Origin: a virus
DNA: 23,844 nt
IMG/VR virus record: IMGVR_UViG_3300046000_005319
Location: 1-23,844 of that record
Strand: one strand, 5' to 3'
How positions within the stretch are numbered: the stretch's first letter is position 1; the number at the start of each line of letters is the position of its first letter. The notes below the pieces were generated by a model, which saw nothing but the letters and a program-made list of their open reading frames with translations, ran no database searches and was not told the origin of the DNA. Positions 1,881-20,675 of this stretch are shown here, piece after piece. The translations under genes were made by a program, and so were the position numbers.

Positions 1881-3362
1881 ATGGCTACAATAAGTACATC
1901 AGGGATTGCATCTGGACAAATAATTCGTTCAGAACATCTATTAAGAGTAATAAATGCTTTAAATGGGGTCACCCCAATAGATATAATTGTAACAGGATCT
2001 CTAGTAATTACAGGTTCAACTTCTTTAAAGGGATTACCTAATACTTCAAGAGCTAATGTAATAACATATGATCCTACTACAGGGCAATTATCATATCTAG
2101 CATCTGCTTCTTTAGGCGTGACTATGAGTGTATCTCAACCTGGAGGTTCAAATACACAAATACAATATAATAGTGGTAGTGTATTAGCAGCAACTTCTTC
2201 ATTTACTTTTAATTATCTTTCTTCAAGTTTGCAAAACGGGAATAGTGTAACATCAAGTGGTACTTATTCACATGCTGAAGGTAATCAAACTATAGCATCA
2301 GGACCATACTCACATGCTGAAGGAACTACTACTATATCTTCTGGAGAGAGTTCACATGCTGAAGGAATTGATGCCAAAGCTATAGGAGGCTATTCACACG
2401 CCGAAGGAAGATTAACATCAGCATCAGGAAATTTTTCACATGCTGAAGGCCATCAAACTATAGCATCAGGATCTTATTCACATGCTGAAGGTAATTCTAC
2501 ACGAGCTACAAATCAATATTCACATGCAGAAGGAAAAGAAACACAAGCAACCGGTGATGGTTCACATTCAGAAGGTAGGAATACAGTAGCATCAGGAGAG
2601 AGTGCCCATGCAGAAGGATTTGGAACTTTATCTTCAGGAAAATTTTCACATGCTGAAGGGTATGAGACAGTATCCTCTAATACTGGTTCTCACGCTGAGG
2701 GACGTCTTACTATATCATCAGGACCTTATTCACATGCTGAAGGTTCAGGTTCTCAATCCCCAGGATTATCCTCACATGCTGAAGGTATAAGTACCCAAGC
2801 AATAGGATCAGGATCACATGCAGAGGGATGTCTTACTATAGCATCAGGGTCTTATTCACATGCTGAAGGTTTTTTGACTCAAACTACAGGTTCATTCTCA
2901 CACGCCGAAGGTACAAACACTAGAGCAATAGGATTATCCTCACATGCTGAAGGGGGAGCAACAATGGCTATAGGATCTTATTCACATGCTGAAGGAGAAA
3001 ATACTCAAGCATCAGGATCTTACTCACATGCTGAGGGACTAGGTACTATAGCAAAGGGAAACAACCAACATGTACAGGGGCAATATAACATAACATCCTC
3101 AGTACAATCTGCTTTTATCCACGGAAATGGTACAGATGATAGTAATAGATCAAATCTGATTTATACTCATGATTCAACAGTTGAAATAACAGGATCACTA
3201 GAAGTATCTGGATCCTTAACATTGAACAATATATTACAATTAACAGTAAGAACAACAACCCCTTCCCCAGAAGTTGAAGGAATGATAATAGCATCAGGCT
3301 CAGCCGGGGCTAGTATATTATACTACTTTGATGGAACTATTTGGAAGGCATTATTCGAATAA
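1881..3362 (+). CDS. Tail fibre with SHAEG (YadA-head-like) repeat array
   Basis: Encodes 493 residues. The N-terminal ~30 residues (GIASGQIIRSEHLLRVINAL) look like a conserved attachment segment, followed by a Ser/Thr/Gly-rich region with an ITYDPTTGQLSY motif. Residues 130-400 are nineteen 14-residue units of the form SHAEG-x-x-T-x-A-S-G-x-Y, plus a degenerate last unit with QHVQG. This is the Hep_Hag/YadA-head type of repeat, which folds as a trimeric stacked beta-roll in bacterial adhesins. After it come AFIHGNGTDD, a GSLEVSGSL strand and a YYFDGTIWKALFE end that resembles other phage fibre tips. It is inferred to be a trimeric fibre or decoration that extends from the virion and contacts the host. 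The stop is followed by a small coiled-coil gene. Confidence 0.8.
   Translation: MATISTSGIASGQIIRSEHLLRVINALNGVTPIDIIVTGSLVITGSTSLKGLPNTSRANVITYDPTTGQLSYLASASLGVTMSVSQPGGSNTQIQYNSGSVLAATSSFTFNYLSSSLQNGNSVTSSGTYSHAEGNQTIASGPYSHAEGTTTISSGESSHAEGIDAKAIGGYSHAEGRLTSASGNFSHAEGHQTIASGSYSHAEGNSTRATNQYSHAEGKETQATGDGSHSEGRNTVASGESAHAEGFGTLSSGKFSHAEGYETVSSNTGSHAEGRLTISSGPYSHAEGSGSQSPGLSSHAEGISTQAIGSGSHAEGCLTIASGSYSHAEGFLTQTTGSFSHAEGTNTRAIGLSSHAEGGATMAIGSYSHAEGENTQASGSYSHAEGLGTIAKGNNQHVQGQYNITSSVQSAFIHGNGTDDSNRSNLIYTHDSTVEITGSLEVSGSLTLNNILQLTVRTTTPSPEVEGMIIASGSAGASILYYFDGTIWKALFE
2268..3080 (+). repeat. 42-bp in-frame tandem repeat encoding SHAEG units
   Basis: Nineteen units spaced exactly 42 bases apart from base 2268, with a twentieth degenerate QHVQG unit starting at 3066. 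Most copies carry tcacatgctgaagg or a near match. Units differ mainly in the x positions; unit 8 reads SHSEG and unit 9 AHAEG. All are in frame, so unit gain or loss keeps the protein open. Confidence 0.92.
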
Positions 3363-6404: not shown

Positions 6405-7151
6405 ATGGAAAATCAAGTTACAAAACCAAAATTCCCTACAGAAATTGTAGAATTACCTTCAAAAGGTCTACTTTACCCAAAAGACAATCCTTTATCAAGC
6501 GGTCAAATTGAAATGAAGTATATGACAGCTAGAGAAGAAGATATCTTAACTAATACTAATTATATTCAACAAGGTACAGTATTAGACAAATTACTAGAAT
6601 CATTAATTGTCTCTAAAGTAGATTTAAAAGATATTTTAATTGGAGATAAAAATGCAATTTTAATTGCTTCTCGTATTTTAGGATATGGTCAAGATTATGA
6701 GTTTGAACATAAAGGTCAAGTTCATAAAGTAGATTTAACTATTCTAAAAGATAAAGAATTACCTGAAGATGTAGATTATACTAAAGGTAATGAATTTTAC
6801 TTCACATTACCTGCTTCTAGAATTGAAATTGGTTTTAAATTACTAACTCATGGAGATGAAGCAGCAATTGAAGCCGAATTAAAAGGATTAAAAAAATTAT
6901 TCCCTAATGGTGGCTCACCTGAACTATCAACTAGATTAAAACATATAATCATCTCAATAAATGAGAATTCTGATAGAAAAACAGTAAGAGAATTTGTTGA
7001 CAATGAATTATTAGCAAGAGATTCAAGATCATTACGTCAAGAAATAAAAAGAATATCCCCAGATATTGATTTAACTATTAAAGGTGATGAAGGGGAGGAC
7101 ATCGCTGTACCAATCAGCCTTAACTTTTTTTGGCCTGACCTCAACCTATAG
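6405..7151 (+). CDS. gp26-like baseplate/tail assembly protein
   Basis: Encodes 248 residues. Recognisable parts are EIVELPSKGLLYPKDNPL near the N-terminus, YMTAREEDILTN, the helix LDKLLESLIVSKV, an ILIASRILGYGQDYEF segment and a late LLARDSRSLRQEIKRISPDID. These match the T4 gp26-type baseplate protein family found in many T4-like phages. It directly precedes the tape measure, where phages place their tail-assembly chaperones. The last codons (NFFWPDLNL-stop) overlap a second open frame, and a run of seven T at 7125-7131 lies inside the overlap. The product is therefore probably made both alone and as a longer frameshifted form. The role is assigned by pattern and position. Confidence 0.7.
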   Translation: MENQVTKPKFPTEIVELPSKGLLYPKDNPLSSGQIEMKYMTAREEDILTNTNYIQQGTVLDKLLESLIVSKVDLKDILIGDKNAILIASRILGYGQDYEFEHKGQVHKVDLTILKDKELPEDVDYTKGNEFYFTLPASRIEIGFKLLTHGDEAAIEAELKGLKKLFPNGGSPELSTRLKHIIISINENSDRKTVREFVDNELLARDSRSLRQEIKRISPDIDLTIKGDEGEDIAVPISLNFFWPDLNL

Positions 7152-7401
7152 AATAAATTTATTTTCCCAAATACATGAAATAGTATTTAATAGTAAGGGA
7201 GGATATGATTGGAATACTGTCTATGAAATGCCTATCTGGCTTCGAACATTTACTTTTAATAAATTAAAAGAACATTATGATAAAGAACAAGCACAAATAG
7301 ATGCTCAAAACAACCAGTTAACTAATAAAAATGTTAATGAAATAGCTAGACCTAATATACCCCAAGCTAATACATATAATGCAAATGTCCCTTCTAAATA
7401 G
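7087..7401 (+). CDS. gp51-like / frameshift extension of gp26-like protein
   Basis: The frame is +1 (equivalently -2) relative to the gp26-like gene and overlaps its last 65 bases. The part after the overlap reads TYRINLFSQIHEIVFNSKGG, then YDWNTVYEMPIWLRTFTFNKL, a pattern ('..eif...gGf.w..vyxMPxxlRxFy') that in other T4-like phages follows directly on the gp26-like domain or stands as a separate gp51-like protein. A GTG at 7084 and an ATG at 7087 could start it alone, but the residues they encode ahead of the overlap end (RTSLYQSALTF) look like out-of-frame sequence. I therefore think it is mainly made as a C-terminal extension by ribosomal frameshifting. The stop codon lies inside the following terminator hairpin. 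A one-base sequencing error in the T run would instead make one 330-residue gene. Confidence 0.6.
   Translation: MKGRTSLYQSALTFFGLTSTYRINLFSQIHEIVFNSKGGYDWNTVYEMPIWLRTFTFNKLKEHYDKEQAQIDAQNNQLTNKNVNEIARPNIPQANTYNANVPSK
7125..7131 (+). other. Candidate programmed frameshift site (T7 run)
   Basis: Seven T in a row read as TTT TTT Tgg in the gp26-like frame. Slipping +1 or -2 moves ribosomes into the downstream frame, open to 7401, 18 bases before the upstream stop codon. A homopolymer lets tRNA-Phe re-pair fully after a -2 slip. No clear stimulatory stem was seen just downstream. Confidence 0.5.
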
Positions 7402-16166: not shown

Positions 16167-16910
16167 ATGAAAAACCCATATAGTCTAAAAAATATACTTC
16201 TAAGTGAAGGAGTAATTAAAAATAAAGCAACTAAAAAAGCTATCCAAGATATACTAAATGAAGATGTTCGTTTTAATTTCCAAAAAGGTGGAGGCGGAGG
16301 TAAAAGATTTATCCCTACTAATGGGATAGTACCAAGTAAATTATTTACAGCTTTACCTAACCATTTTAAAATGTTAGGAAACCAATTATTAATATCCCCA
16401 GAAGCTGTAATTGCTTTAACTTCAGTTGAAAGAGGTAGAGGTGGTGCTGTTAATTATAAAGAACTATATGGTAAACTTAGAGGGTATTTTGATATTAAAA
16501 AAGCAGATTCTAGTTCAGAATTTGGTCCTGCTCAAACATCATCTTTCTTATCTCAATTTAAACAAGGTTTAAAAGGTAGATTAGATTCTGTAGTATCAGG
16601 AGGTAAAGAATTTAAAGCATGGAATGGAGAAGGAAGCAAAAATGAAAAAGGAGATTTTACATTCCCTCTAGCTCAATTTAAAGCCGATTCATTACAAGAA
16701 AATGAAGAAGGTCTTAGATCACAACTACATTCCCTTGTTGGTAATGAAATGAGATTAGGAAAAAGAGCAAATATGACTGGAGCATCTCACCATATAGAAG
16801 AACATGAAAAAGCAGAAAAAGCAGTTGAAGATTTTCTTAGAAAAAATCCATCTATGGAGGAATATAGAGATGAAGTTGAAGATAATTTTACTAAATTGTT
16901 ATTTAAATAA
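16167..16910 (+). CDS. Unknown protein with capsid-targeting-like leader
   Basis: Encodes 247 residues. The N-terminus MKNPYSLKNILLSEG is a short amphipathic helix ending L-S-E at residues 12-14, like the T4 capsid-targeting leaders that gp21 protease cuts after (L/I)-x-E. After it come a Lys-rich stretch, a GGGGGKRF linker, a folded part with LFTALPNHFKMLGNQLLISP and VERGRGGAVNYKELYG, and a charged helical C-terminus with SHHIEEHEKAEKAVEDFLRK. There is no signal peptide or TM segment, and no enzyme motif I recognise. It lies alone in its own unit between baseplate and polymerase genes. I infer an internal capsid protein, possibly DNA-binding given the basic N-terminal third; this is uncertain. 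Confidence 0.6.
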   Translation: MKNPYSLKNILLSEGVIKNKATKKAIQDILNEDVRFNFQKGGGGGKRFIPTNGIVPSKLFTALPNHFKMLGNQLLISPEAVIALTSVERGRGGAVNYKELYGKLRGYFDIKKADSSSEFGPAQTSSFLSQFKQGLKGRLDSVVSGGKEFKAWNGEGSKNEKGDFTFPLAQFKADSLQENEEGLRSQLHSLVGNEMRLGKRANMTGASHHIEEHEKAEKAVEDFLRKNPSMEEYRDEVEDNFTKLLFK

Positions 16911-16930
16911 AATCTTAAAATAATAAATTT

Positions 16931-16952
16931 GGCTCCCATAGGGAGCCTTTTT
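16931..16952 (+). terminator. Intrinsic terminator GGCTCCC/GGGAGCC
   Basis: A perfect 7-bp stem with ATA loop and a run of five T, 20 bases after the stop. It shares its core with the terminator at 12050. Confidence 0.85.
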
Positions 16953-16960
16953 ATATTTAA
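16953..16960 (+). promoter_or_regulatory. Variant promoter element ATATTTAA before polymerase
   Basis: ATATTTAA, one change from the box seen before structural genes, begins right after the terminator T-tract and lies 21 bases before the polymerase ATG. Confidence 0.28.
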
Positions 16961-16981
16961 CCAAAATAAAAGTTATATTAA

Positions 16982-18313
16982 ATGTTTTATATAGTAGAAA
17001 CCCAAGATCAATTATCACAACTTCTTGTATCGGAAGAATGTTACATTAATGTAATACCATTAAGTAGTAATTATCATCCTTTATTAACAGAAGTATCCTT
17101 AATTTATTATAAACCAAAACATGGTAAGGGATTAATACTTACAATTAATCATAGTGAAGGATTTTATTTAAATTTTGAAAATGTAAAAGACTTTATATTA
17201 AAACATGAAAAAGTTTTTGTATTAGATAAAAAAGTAACAGCACAATTATTAGGGGAAGAATTTTTAGATAGTAAAGTAAAGGATTTACAATTATTATCAC
17301 TGTCCATGTCTACTACCCCTCCGTATATACACGATTTTGATACTCATATACACACTCATTTCAAACAACTTTATGGAGACAAACCTTATTTAAATTCAAT
17401 TATTCCAATTCCTAAACATTATGATACTCAAGAAGCTATATTTAGTGTTGTAAAGCATTTAATGGTTTACCCCGCATTAGACACGTATTATAACGATGAA
17501 TATGTTAAAGTGTACTATGGTATTGAAAAGCAAGGAATCGCGTTAGATATGCCACTTTTTAACGAGCATTTTAACCCGACTAACCCTAATTTCTCAATAA
17601 AGGATGAGAAAATTTATACTCAATATAATTTGTATAATTTTACTTCTCGTCCTACTAATGCTTTTAATAATATTAATTTCGCAGCATTAAATAAATCAAA
17701 CGGGTCTCGTGAGGCAATTATCTCTCAAAACAATATGTTATTTGAATTTGATTACGAGGCATACCATCCACGAATTTTAGGTAAATTAATTGGATACGAG
17801 TTTGATGAAGGATCTATTCATACCCATTTAGGTCAAATGTATTTCAAAACAGAAGTACTAACCCTAGAACAATATCAAGCCTCTAAAGAATTAACATTCA
17901 AACAACTATATGGAGGAGTCTTTAAACAATATGAAAATATTCCATTCTTTAAACAAGTAGCAGCTTATGTAGATGGTTTATGGGATGAGTTTAATTATGG
18001 AGGATATATTACATTAGTAGGAGGAAGACAATTATTTGCAAAAGATGTTATAAATCCTACACCACAAAAACTATTGAATTATTTAATACAGTCTGGAGAA
18101 ACTTTTTATAATGTTAATTCTATAAAAGGTGTGCAAGCCTATTTGGTTAATAGAAAAAGTAATATTATATTATACACATACGACTCGATATTAATAGATT
18201 ATCATAAAGATGATGGAAAGGAGGTATTAATAGAGATAAAAAGGTTATTAGAAGAACCGTTCGGGTTCAAAGTTTCTGTAAAATACGGAAAAAATTACAA
18301 TTCATTAAAATAA
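16982..18313 (+). CDS. Compact family-A DNA polymerase
   Basis: Encodes 443 residues. Family-A landmarks appear in order: TQYNLYNFTSRPTNAFNNIN (R223; the 'TGRlSs..PNlQN' motif); motif A FDYEAYHPRI with D257 (for DYSQIELR); O-helix K302-E-L-T-F306-x3-Y310-G311, keeping the exact K/F/YG spacing of E. coli Pol I K758/F762/Y766-G; motif C YDSILIDYH with D401 (for HDE). The third HDE acid is Ser here, and the usual O-helix Arg is Tyr298. Residues 1-~180 look like a degraded 3'-5' exonuclease fold; no D-x-E or other catalytic acids could be placed. Only ~35 residues lie between GIEKQGIALD and the R223 motif, so the thumb is very short. Probably the replicative polymerase working with gp32, helicase and exonuclease. 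T4 itself uses a family-B enzyme. Confidence 0.85.
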   Translation: MFYIVETQDQLSQLLVSEECYINVIPLSSNYHPLLTEVSLIYYKPKHGKGLILTINHSEGFYLNFENVKDFILKHEKVFVLDKKVTAQLLGEEFLDSKVKDLQLLSLSMSTTPPYIHDFDTHIHTHFKQLYGDKPYLNSIIPIPKHYDTQEAIFSVVKHLMVYPALDTYYNDEYVKVYYGIEKQGIALDMPLFNEHFNPTNPNFSIKDEKIYTQYNLYNFTSRPTNAFNNINFAALNKSNGSREAIISQNNMLFEFDYEAYHPRILGKLIGYEFDEGSIHTHLGQMYFKTEVLTLEQYQASKELTFKQLYGGVFKQYENIPFFKQVAAYVDGLWDEFNYGGYITLVGGRQLFAKDVINPTPQKLLNYLIQSGETFYNVNSIKGVQAYLVNRKSNIILYTYDSILIDYHKDDGKEVLIEIKRLLEEPFGFKVSVKYGKNYNSLK

Positions 18314-18316
18314 GTT

Positions 18317-18784
18317 ATGACAAATACACATTTACCTACTCTCTCACATATTTATTTGCAACAATCATATGAAAACGCATATGAATATTCAGATTATATG
18401 AACAAATTATTCTGTACTTTTTCTAGTAAAGAAGATCTAGAGAGTACACTAGCTGCTATACAAGGACAATATAAAATTTTATTTAACAAAATATTTGTTT
18501 TATATATTACATCTACCGAGGAATATGTTTGTACTTATAACATAGACCATATTAACATGTCTAATAACTTATTAGGAAATACTATTTTACTTCATAGAAA
18601 GAAGGAAAGCAATACACTTTACACTATAAATGCTTTAAATGATTTAATCAAATCATTAAATGGTGGAGTATTAGATAATACATTTGCTATTAATTGGGTT
18701 GATTATAAAAATTGTATTTTATTAACTCACGCTGGTGAATTAAGAAGATTAGATACTAAAATCTACAAAATTATTACTCTATGA
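18317..18784 (+). CDS. Hypothetical protein next to DNA polymerase
   Basis: Encodes 155 residues, starting three bases after the polymerase stop, behind ...aataagttATG. It is soluble and alpha/beta in character. The C-terminal half (LYTINALNDLIKSLNGGVLD, then FAINWVDYKNCILLTHAGEL-RRLDT) looks like a defined domain, but I cannot name it. Tight coupling to the polymerase suggests a replication accessory factor; that is inference from position only. Its stop overlaps the start of the kinase-like gene by four bases (ATGA), so the two are translationally coupled. Confidence 0.6.
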   Translation: MTNTHLPTLSHIYLQQSYENAYEYSDYMNKLFCTFSSKEDLESTLAAIQGQYKILFNKIFVLYITSTEEYVCTYNIDHINMSNNLLGNTILLHRKKESNTLYTINALNDLIKSLNGGVLDNTFAINWVDYKNCILLTHAGELRRLDTKIYKIITL

Positions 18785-18813
18785 TTAAATTATCAAATTT
18801 AATAAAAGAAATA
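18781..18813 (+). repeat. Leader-coding repeat, copy 1
   Basis: These 33 bases match 19392-19424 at 31 positions by eye and encode MIKLSNLIKEI; the rest of the two genes is unrelated. Confidence 0.8.
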
Positions 18814-19374
18814 TATAATAAAGATTTAATAGGGTATGAGTATGGTGAAGGAGGACAACATCAAATTTACACTTATGATGAAGACAAAGTAATTAAATTT
18901 AACCATGGTGGGGGAGAAATAGGATATAACTTAAAAATCTTTAGTAAACATCCCGAAATTTTCCCTAAAGTTTATGATATGGGAGAAGATTATGCTATCT
19001 TAGATAAATTAGATGATAATAAAGCATCTTCTGAAATATGGAAAATTAAACCTTATTTATTTGCTCAATCTTCAGAAGTCCCACCTAAAAATCCTTATAT
19101 TGCTAAATTAGTTCAAAGATCTCGGGTTACAGGGCCAAATTGGTATAATAATGAATTAACTCAATTATTATATAATAACTTAGAGGATAATGAATTAAAA
19201 TCTCAATTACAGAAAGAGCTTCCAAATAATTTATATAATTCTTTAATAAAAAATTATTACCCTTTACTTCAAAAAGTAAAAAATTTATCATGGGATTCAA
19301 AACATGAAAAAGACATAAATGATGAAAATTTTGGGTATGATTCTAAAGGGAATTTAAAAATGCTAGATATTTAA
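18781..19374 (+). CDS. Minimal kinase-like protein with leader peptide
   Basis: Encodes 197 residues. Residues 1-10, MIKLSNLIKE, form a leader ending I-K-E, matching a T4-type prohead-protease site. The rest has protein-kinase/APH-like landmarks: a Gly-rich loop GEGGQHQIY (22-30), VIKF with K39 (beta-3 lysine), a hinge-like YAILDKLDD, then a catalytic-loop-like D178-INDE-N183-FG and MLDI with D196 in place of DFG. The protein ends there, so no activation segment or C-lobe helices follow; short versions of this fold occur in phages. If active it would transfer phosphate from ATP to a host or phage target; with a leader it could be packaged and injected, as T4 Alt is. Catalysis is unproven. Overlaps the upstream gene by 4 bases. 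Confidence 0.6.
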   Translation: MIKLSNLIKEIYNKDLIGYEYGEGGQHQIYTYDEDKVIKFNHGGGEIGYNLKIFSKHPEIFPKVYDMGEDYAILDKLDDNKASSEIWKIKPYLFAQSSEVPPKNPYIAKLVQRSRVTGPNWYNNELTQLLYNNLEDNELKSQLQKELPNNLYNSLIKNYYPLLQKVKNLSWDSKHEKDINDENFGYDSKGNLKMLDI

Positions 19375-19391
19375 CAACAATATAATACATT

Positions 19392-19424
19392 ATGATTAAA
19401 CTATCAAATTTAATAAATGAAATA
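19392..19424 (+). repeat. Leader-coding repeat, copy 2
   Basis: Second copy of the 33-base leader sequence (31 of 33 the same as 18781-18813). The shared part stops abruptly at the leader's end. Confidence 0.8.
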
Positions 19425-19784
19425 AAAATTAATAAACCAGGAGGTTCTAGGGTTTATGTAAGTGAACCTTATGTAGAGTTATTTAAAGTAGAAAATTTCC
19501 CTATTATATATGATACAGAATATCTTAGTAAAGATATACATTTTTTCTTAAAAGATAAAGCAAATCCTGAATTTGGGCAAATAATAAATAAAATAATAAA
19601 TTATATACAAGGTTATGATGATCCTACTTTTAATTTTACAGGGAATTTTTCATCACGTAATGAAATAATTTATATTTATATTGATGGTGAGGAAAATTAT
19701 ACCATAGTAGATTCTTTAAACCAATTTGGTAGGGATTATGAAACTGAAGAAGGTTGGGGAGTAGAAAATTGGAAAATTATTTAA
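19392..19784 (+). CDS. Unknown protein with the same leader peptide
   Basis: Encodes 130 residues. The first 11, MIKLSNLINEI, are nearly identical to those of the kinase-like protein upstream and end I-N-E at residue 10, again like a prohead-protease cut site. The remainder is acidic and beta-rich: GSRVYVSEPYVELFKVENFP, a central helix IINKIINYIQGY, then IIYIYIDGEENYTIVDSLNQ and EEGWGVENWKII at the end. No enzyme motif was recognised. It is the last gene before a terminator. I infer a small internal virion protein delivered with the DNA; the leader is the only support. Confidence 0.6.
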   Translation: MIKLSNLINEIKINKPGGSRVYVSEPYVELFKVENFPIIYDTEYLSKDIHFFLKDKANPEFGQIINKIINYIQGYDDPTFNFTGNFSSRNEIIYIYIDGEENYTIVDSLNQFGRDYETEEGWGVENWKII

Positions 19785-19792
19785 AAACATTT

Positions 19793-19812
19793 GGCTTCTT
19801 AAGGAAGCCTTA
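19793..19812 (+). terminator. Intrinsic terminator GGCTTC/GAAGCC
   Basis: A 6-bp GC-rich stem with TTAAG loop, but only a broken T-tract (TTATTATATTT), so it may leak. It separates the leader-protein gene from the gp32 unit. Confidence 0.6.
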
Positions 19813-19814
19813 TT

Positions 19815-19822
19815 ATATTTAC
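19815..19822 (+). promoter_or_regulatory. Variant promoter element ATATTTAC before gp32
   Basis: ATATTTAC lies right after the terminator and 37 bases before the gp32-like ATG. The leader between is A/T-only apart from a few bases and has no stem, like the unstructured leader that T4 gp32 binds to control itself. Confidence 0.25.
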
Positions 19823-19859
19823 GATTACAAATTAGTTTTAACATTAAATTAAAAAAGTT

Positions 19860-20675
19860 ATGAATTTAGACTTGATCCAAAACAAGCTTAGTGAACTTTC
19901 GACTCCTAAATCTGGAGGCCAAAAAAACAACGATAAAGCTTTAAGCTTTTGGAAACCTACAGTTGGTAAAGCCTTAGTAAGGTTTGTCCCATCAAAAAAC
20001 AATCCTGAAAACCCATTTAAGGAATTATATTTCCACTATGGTATAGGAAAAAGAACAATTATTTCACCTTCAAACTTCGGTGAAAAAGATCCAATTATTG
20101 AATTTGCAAAAGAATTACGTAAAACCAAAGAACCTGAAAACTGGAAATTAGCTAAGAAATTAGAGCCCAAAATGAGAGTTTTCGCTCCTGTTATTATTAG
20201 AGGTGAAGAAGATAAAGGAGTACGTCTTTGGGAATTTGGTAAAGAAGTTTATCAATCATTACTATCACTTGCAGCTGATGAAGACATTGGAGATTTTACT
20301 GATATCATGGAAGGTAGAGACATGAAAGTTGAAACAGTAGGACCAGAAACTACAGGTACAGATTATAATAAATCTCGTATTATGCCTGCTCTTAAAACTA
20401 CACCATTATGTAATGATAATGATGAGTTAACTAAATGGTTAGAAACTCAACCTGATCCTACTTCATTTAGTAAAAAATACACTTTTGATGAGATTAAACA
20501 ATTCTTAACTGAATGGTTAAACCCAGAAGAAGCAGAAAAAACTGAAGAAGCTGGTGATCAGTTCTTAGCATTACCAAAAACTGAAAAATCAGTAGTACCT
20601 CAAGCTAATAAAGCATTTGCTTTAAAACCTAAAGAAACAATCGCCGAAGACGAATTCGAAGATTTATTTAACTAA
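19860..20675 (+). CDS. gp32: gp32-like ssDNA-binding protein, no zinc cysteines
   Basis: Encodes 271 residues (T4 gp32: 301). The core OB-fold signature is clear: LSFWKPTVGKALVRFVPSKN (29-48), NPFKELYFHYGIGKR (51-65), MRVFAPVIIRGEEDKGVRLW, and EFGKEVYQSLLSL. T4 gp32 holds zinc with His64, Cys77, Cys87 and Cys90; here the matching stretch (PSNFGEKDPIIEFAKELRKT, 70-89) has no Cys at all, and the only Cys is in TPLCNDND. The C-terminus is acidic and ends EDEFEDLFN, like the tails by which single-strand binding proteins contact partners. It coats ssDNA for the polymerase, UvsX and helicase encoded around it. UvsX follows three bases after its stop. Confidence 0.88.
   Translation: MNLDLIQNKLSELSTPKSGGQKNNDKALSFWKPTVGKALVRFVPSKNNPENPFKELYFHYGIGKRTIISPSNFGEKDPIIEFAKELRKTKEPENWKLAKKLEPKMRVFAPVIIRGEEDKGVRLWEFGKEVYQSLLSLAADEDIGDFTDIMEGRDMKVETVGPETTGTDYNKSRIMPALKTTPLCNDNDELTKWLETQPDPTSFSKKYTFDEIKQFLTEWLNPEEAEKTEEAGDQFLALPKTEKSVVPQANKAFALKPKETIAEDEFEDLFN

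Follow-up and report, generated by a model that had tools for sequence, protein, structure and literature searches.

Several head proteins of phage T4, gp24 and the internal proteins among them, carry N-terminal propeptides of 10–20 residues that the prohead protease gp21 cuts off (PMC5694885). In the 10-residue capsid-targeting sequence (CTS) of the internal protein IPIII, targeting depends on positions 4 and 7 and processing on positions 8 and 10; D10 blocks processing with targeting kept, and the two functions are thus separable (PMC9026906). All three T4 internal proteins are inhibitors of GmrSD restriction enzymes (PMC12373910), and Alt, annotated as an ADP-ribosyltransferase, is likewise packaged in the head. 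In the giant phages phiKZ and SPN3US, head-protein propeptides are cut after x-x-E by a gp21-related protease (gp175/gp245), with redundant sites within one propeptide; the SPN3US propeptides are mostly longer than 100 residues, with A-x-E or S/A/G-x-E sites (PMC5694885), whereas the leaders described here are short and carry I/L/V-x-E. DarA and Hdf of phage P1 offer a further likeness, as they are associated with the head and contribute to defence against restriction; this rests on the literature only, without sequence or leader comparison. We found no description of the present leaders in the mostly open-access literature searched, which did yield the precedents in T4 and the giant phages.

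The window analyzed here is a 23,844-nt (23.8-kb) fragment, a viral contig that encodes T4-like tail and replication functions and lacks the head region. The nearest isolate found is Flavobacterium phage immuto (MW353175, 160 kb), whose tail sheath is 47% identical to that of the window; the nearest large relative is the contig of locus L014, with an ssDNA-binding protein (SSB) 85% identical. A 493-aa window protein (1881-3362) has many SHAEG repeats matching the YadA head repeat and is a probable fibre or adhesin. At the baseplate-hub position, the ORFs 6405-7151 and 7084-7401 overlap out of frame by 68 bases, a possible programmed frameshift; locus L013 has the same kind of out-of-frame overlap (21-767/703-1017).

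The original prediction was that three window proteins, encoded at 16167, 18781 and 19392, begin with leaders ending in (I/L)-x-E that serve as capsid-targeting and cleavage tags. The three ORFs and their leaders are present at these positions. The tag holds in the T4 register for 18781 and 19392 but not for 16167, whose leader does not belong with these two. The two matching leaders are:

18781-18810, plus strand: class C leader, MIKLSNLIKE (10 codons); a capsid-targeting propeptide is proposed, with cleavage after E10; T4 CTS register, leader DNA common to 19392
19392-19421, plus strand: class C leader MIKLSNLINE; putative capsid-targeting propeptide; 31 of 33 bases as in the 18781 leader

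Both leaders have L4, L7, I8 and E10. They share this arrangement of hydrophobic residues at 4, 7 and 8 and E10 with the gp21-processed N-terminal leaders of T4 (IPII/IPIII, Alt, gp24) and come close to the start of gp24, MAKINELLRE. Within the window, a motif that fixes the register (M..h..hh.E, where h is hydrophobic) picks out 18781 and 19392 and no other ORF (0.04 expected). In T4 its sole matches are IPII, IPIII and gp24 (0.53 expected); immuto has four matching genes (0.54 expected) and crAss001 none. The relaxed motif M-x(4-12)-(I/L/V)-x-E was rejected as too loose: unrelated ORFs match it, and several more window ORFs fit. A signal peptide or lipoprotein leader was also rejected, as the leaders lack a hydrophobic core and have charged and polar residues all along; signal-like starts of the MKKLFLLL type in immuto cluster apart from them.

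At the DNA level, the 33 bases of the two leaders differ at 2 positions, as first noted, and the flanks are at background (37% identity over 30 bases upstream, 47% over 30 bases downstream). Over the 30 bases after the ATG, the pair has 28 matches; across all pairs of ORF starts in the window the mean is 9.4 (s.d. 2.9). The observation that these near-identical leaders precede unrelated bodies also holds, with no significant BLAST similarity between the two (best E about 0.07).

The third gene comprises:

16167-16262, plus strand: leader of ORF 16167, residues 1-32; candidate sites LSE14 and the conserved LNE32, from alignment with the L013 and L014 orthologues
16263-16910, plus strand: body of ORF 16167, 215 aa, of unknown function; kept between baseplate genes and polymerase in L013 and L014

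Judged from its sequence, this putative leader is the least certain and the weakest case of the three. It does not meet the M..h..hh.E register, and neither do the longer classes A and B described below. The window protein has a 32-residue start, the L014 orthologue a 12-residue start, MSHIKLQDLLNE, and the site they have in common is LNE32. In the alignment, the L014 start falls on residues 27-32 (QDILNE) of the window protein, which makes E32 the conserved candidate; the proposed cleavage site, first placed at residue 14, probably moves there. None of the three window bodies has a significant domain match, and AlphaFold models are of low confidence (mean pLDDT 48 for 18781 and 47 for 16167). 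A kinase-like identity of 18781 was discarded, as its motifs were found by eye only and have no library support.

Both class C genes lie in a variable slot beside the polymerase and SSB genes:

18317-18784, plus strand: 155-aa conserved gene, left flank of the slot; 74% identical in L014, 60% in immuto
18785-19859, plus strand: variable slot bounded by the 155-aa gene and the SSB gene; home of both cargo genes
18811-19374, plus strand: body (cargo) encoded by ORF 18781 downstream of its leader, 187 aa; unmatched in Pfam, PHROG and NCBIfam
19422-19784, plus strand: body (cargo) of ORF 19392, 120 aa, without known function; 58% identical to L004:8539-8919
19860-20675, plus strand: SSB gene, flanking the slot on the right; its product aligns with the immuto protein annotated as ssDNA-binding

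In relatives the slot is mostly empty (50-100 bp) and otherwise holds leader-bearing cargo, GIY-YIG ORFs or FkbM-methyltransferase-like ORFs. L004, a near-identical contig, is without gene 18781, and the junction falls within the shared leader. A distant relative, L422, has in the same slot a copy of the 18781 protein that is 74% identical, compared with only 34-54% for the neighboring proteins. Cargo therefore appears to move between phages here. In L109 and L110, the FkbM-type methyltransferase-like genes that fill the slot used by leader cargo in other phages have no leader. Upstream of the slot, the window encodes a short, 443-aa polymerase-like protein (16982-18313) whose immuto counterpart (L006:1-1326) is annotated as DNA polymerase family A; immuto has a second, longer family A polymerase (L006:37898-40231).

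Unsupervised comparison of N-termini in immuto revealed two large families of leaders on unrelated bodies, class A (MKKSxLxxIIKE) and class B (MENFDLKKFLVENKLT), and a pair, class D (MKKQILSEQFxRMQxLAGIITES), again on unrelated bodies. Applied to T4, the comparison recovered the IPII/IPIII pair as one of three pairs above threshold; in crAss001 it gave one weak pair. At least three leader classes occur in the relatives, on at least about 80, 80 and 29 unrelated bodies, where unrelatedness rests on BLAST clusters and remote homologues may be split. The patterns used to scan viral contigs fixed residues 1-12 for class A and 1-14 for class B, and the resulting figures apply to the matches listed. 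Among these, conservation in the 77 class A body clusters reaches about residue 20, with L18-x-E20, and in the 65 class B clusters about residue 24, with L22-x-E24; beyond these points it is at background level. An (I/L)-x-E site lies in this interval in 61/77 class A and 58/65 class B clusters among the matches listed, compared with about 7 in control intervals. Class C (MIKLxDLLKE) has E10 in 23 of 29 unrelated body clusters, with E not demanded by the search. About 20% of class A and class C members lack the exact site. Relatives thus carry leaders on many unrelated bodies, as had been anticipated, and these end at an (I/L)-x-E that the searches did not impose. Leader-only queries against Pfam and PHROG gave nothing significant, and a tblastn search that used the class A leader retrieved no isolate, perhaps owing to low-complexity filtering.

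Two or more leader classes occur in ten body clusters. The clearest swap is in an ART-like family, in which three leaders are joined to the body right after the E (MIKLLDILKEITE/GKQVGTLYHFT, MIKLIDILREINE/GKQVGDIYHYT and MKKSQLKQLIKEEILKALNE/GKQVGTLYHFT, the slash marking the junction); the common body, GKQVG(T/D)(L/I)YH(F/Y)T, begins after (I/L)-x-E. Swap junctions at E, the L004 junction inside the leader and near-identical DNA on unrelated bodies bear out the proposal that the leader is a movable module. These sequence comparisons support a portable leader, with bodies putatively added, removed and swapped at a few variable slots by recombination within the leader DNA.

Few of the 115 leader-bearing proteins scanned match Pfam; the matches are ART-like (Tox-ART-HYD1), NUDIX, NT5C nucleotidase, zeta-toxin-like kinase, serine hydrolase and HD. 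The NUDIX domain starts at residue 14 and the zeta-toxin-like kinase at residue 11, directly behind the leader, which is therefore an N-terminal extension. No T4 internal protein is named in the Pfam or PHROG results among the matches listed, and a leader pattern like that of the T4 internal proteins has no match among ORFs of the sampled loci. Since these comparisons show no body or leader homology to these proteins, we say that the cargo works like an internal protein, not that it is one. Immuto encodes a 7-deazaguanine pathway (QueC/D/E/F, FolE, DpdA; L006:18607-37015), so that possible injected anti-restriction proteins may exist alongside DNA modification.

If the leaders are cleaved in the head, a prohead protease should be encoded in these genomes, and a gp21-type S77 protease is indeed found in the nearest large relative and in almost all large leader-bearing contigs. 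The L014 contig has a T4-type head cluster in the order portal, gp68-position gene, gp21 (S77), a leader gene (MENFNFKKYLSESKLLKE), gp22 and gp23. Immuto encodes a gp21/S77 prohead protease together with T4-type head genes, and its gene at the gp67/68 position has a class A leader resembling those of cargo genes. Peptidase_S77 is present in 13/14 leader-bearing contigs of at least 93 kb; there is no base rate from large viral contigs without leaders. The contig of L003 (IMGVR_UViG_3300032237_001169, 108.8 kb) bears an exact class C leader, yet S77 could not be detected on it; it may be incomplete, and its Gp23 match covers only 60 positions and is interrupted by TGA. In the leader-bearing L430 (IMGVR_UViG_3300025087_000036), the S77 protease (958-2637) is split by an intein-like insertion of about 350 aa with Intein_splicing and LAGLIDADG_3 matches below cut-off, located right after GELDHPD, which may hold the catalytic His. 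An alignment of gp23 propeptides indicates that the site is kept (FLTE65 in T4 vs (I/L)V(S/A)E59 in these phages).

Leader genes cluster next to gp21 and upstream of terminase. In 80 gp21-centered loci they account for 67/215 ORFs in the first 2 kb after gp21 and 36/88 ORFs at 6-8 kb before it. Leader ORFs make up 12.5% of ORFs in gp21-centered loci vs 0.7% in SSB-centered loci, with orthologues counted repeatedly, so that a p-value for this contrast is not to be read at face value.

We propose that the leaders are T4-type capsid-targeting propeptides removed by gp21 that mark packaged, injected cargo, and put the probability of this reading at roughly 0.8. The T4 register, swap junctions at E, head-gene location and S77 support targeting and cleavage as originally suggested; packaging, cleavage and injection are inferred, and we found no virion proteomics on these proteins in the mostly open-access literature searched. 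Cargo would be made late in infection, and its amphipathic leader would bind the prohead scaffold core, a step shown for T4 and inferred here, so that cargo is built into the prohead. The S77/gp21 protease would then cut after (I/L/V)-x-E, remove the leader and free the body inside the head, to be injected together with the DNA. Like virion presence, an effector function of the bodies is an inference. Evident in the sequences themselves are the modular leaders, their ending at an (I/L)-x-E that no search imposed, the junctions of the swaps, the exchange of cargo and the association with head genes and S77.

An uncut leader that merely docks the protein to scaffold or capsid, with E as part of an amphipathic helix, would account for the helix-like pattern and for the separability of targeting from processing in T4, where D10 still targets (PMC9026906). 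However, in three classes of different length strong conservation ends at the E, preceded two residues earlier by I/L/V, and swaps join exactly behind it; we regard such docking as unlikely. A different partner altogether (phage or host RNA polymerase, membrane or tail), with the head neighborhood reflecting only shared late transcription, is more doubtful still. It could draw on the 16167 gene and the L014 kinase-like gene, which adjoin tail genes, and on the L003 contig without detectable S77, but leader genes occupy the position directly behind gp21 and are seldom found in SSB-centered loci, the gp68-position gene has a class A leader too, and the T4 register fits known gp21 substrates.

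The near-identical DNA of the window leaders and the recombination there in L004 could also mean that the shared start is selected as nucleic acid, a translation-initiation or recombination element, and some class B leader codons are indeed skewed and less varied than body codons. Yet the conserved leader positions mostly use several synonymous codons, many with entropy near that of body codons, and conservation tracks amino acids and stops at I/L-x-E, which makes this the least credible of the explanations.

Targeted propeptides of the kind we favor would make a system that acts like the T4 CTS on a larger scale, with several classes, and that is undescribed as far as we searched. As in T4, a leader common to unrelated bodies occurs at variable loci in phages with a gp21-type protease and a T4-type head cluster. 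Unlike T4, these phages have leaders of at least three classes, with lengths of 10, about 20 and about 24 residues, whose sequences differ from those in T4; they also have many more cargo families per phage group, and their hosts are probably Bacteroidota, as inferred from the isolate immuto. With only slight preference over the contrary, we suggest that widespread T4-related phages use several parallel, interchangeable capsid-address codes to shuttle a huge, fast-exchanging repertoire of enzymes and inhibitors (ART-like, zeta-toxin-like kinase, nucleotidase, NUDIX, unknown folds) into virions, with leader DNA as the site of recombination for cargo exchange. In a limited sample, at least about 185 body clusters bear leaders, most of them without a known domain. 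The leaders thus provide, for these phages with their probable Bacteroidota hosts, a ready catalogue of putative injected effectors and counter-defence proteins as well as a possible set of packaging tags. With a short, recognizable leader, finding out which phage proteins accompany the DNA into the cell would become a matter of sequence search.
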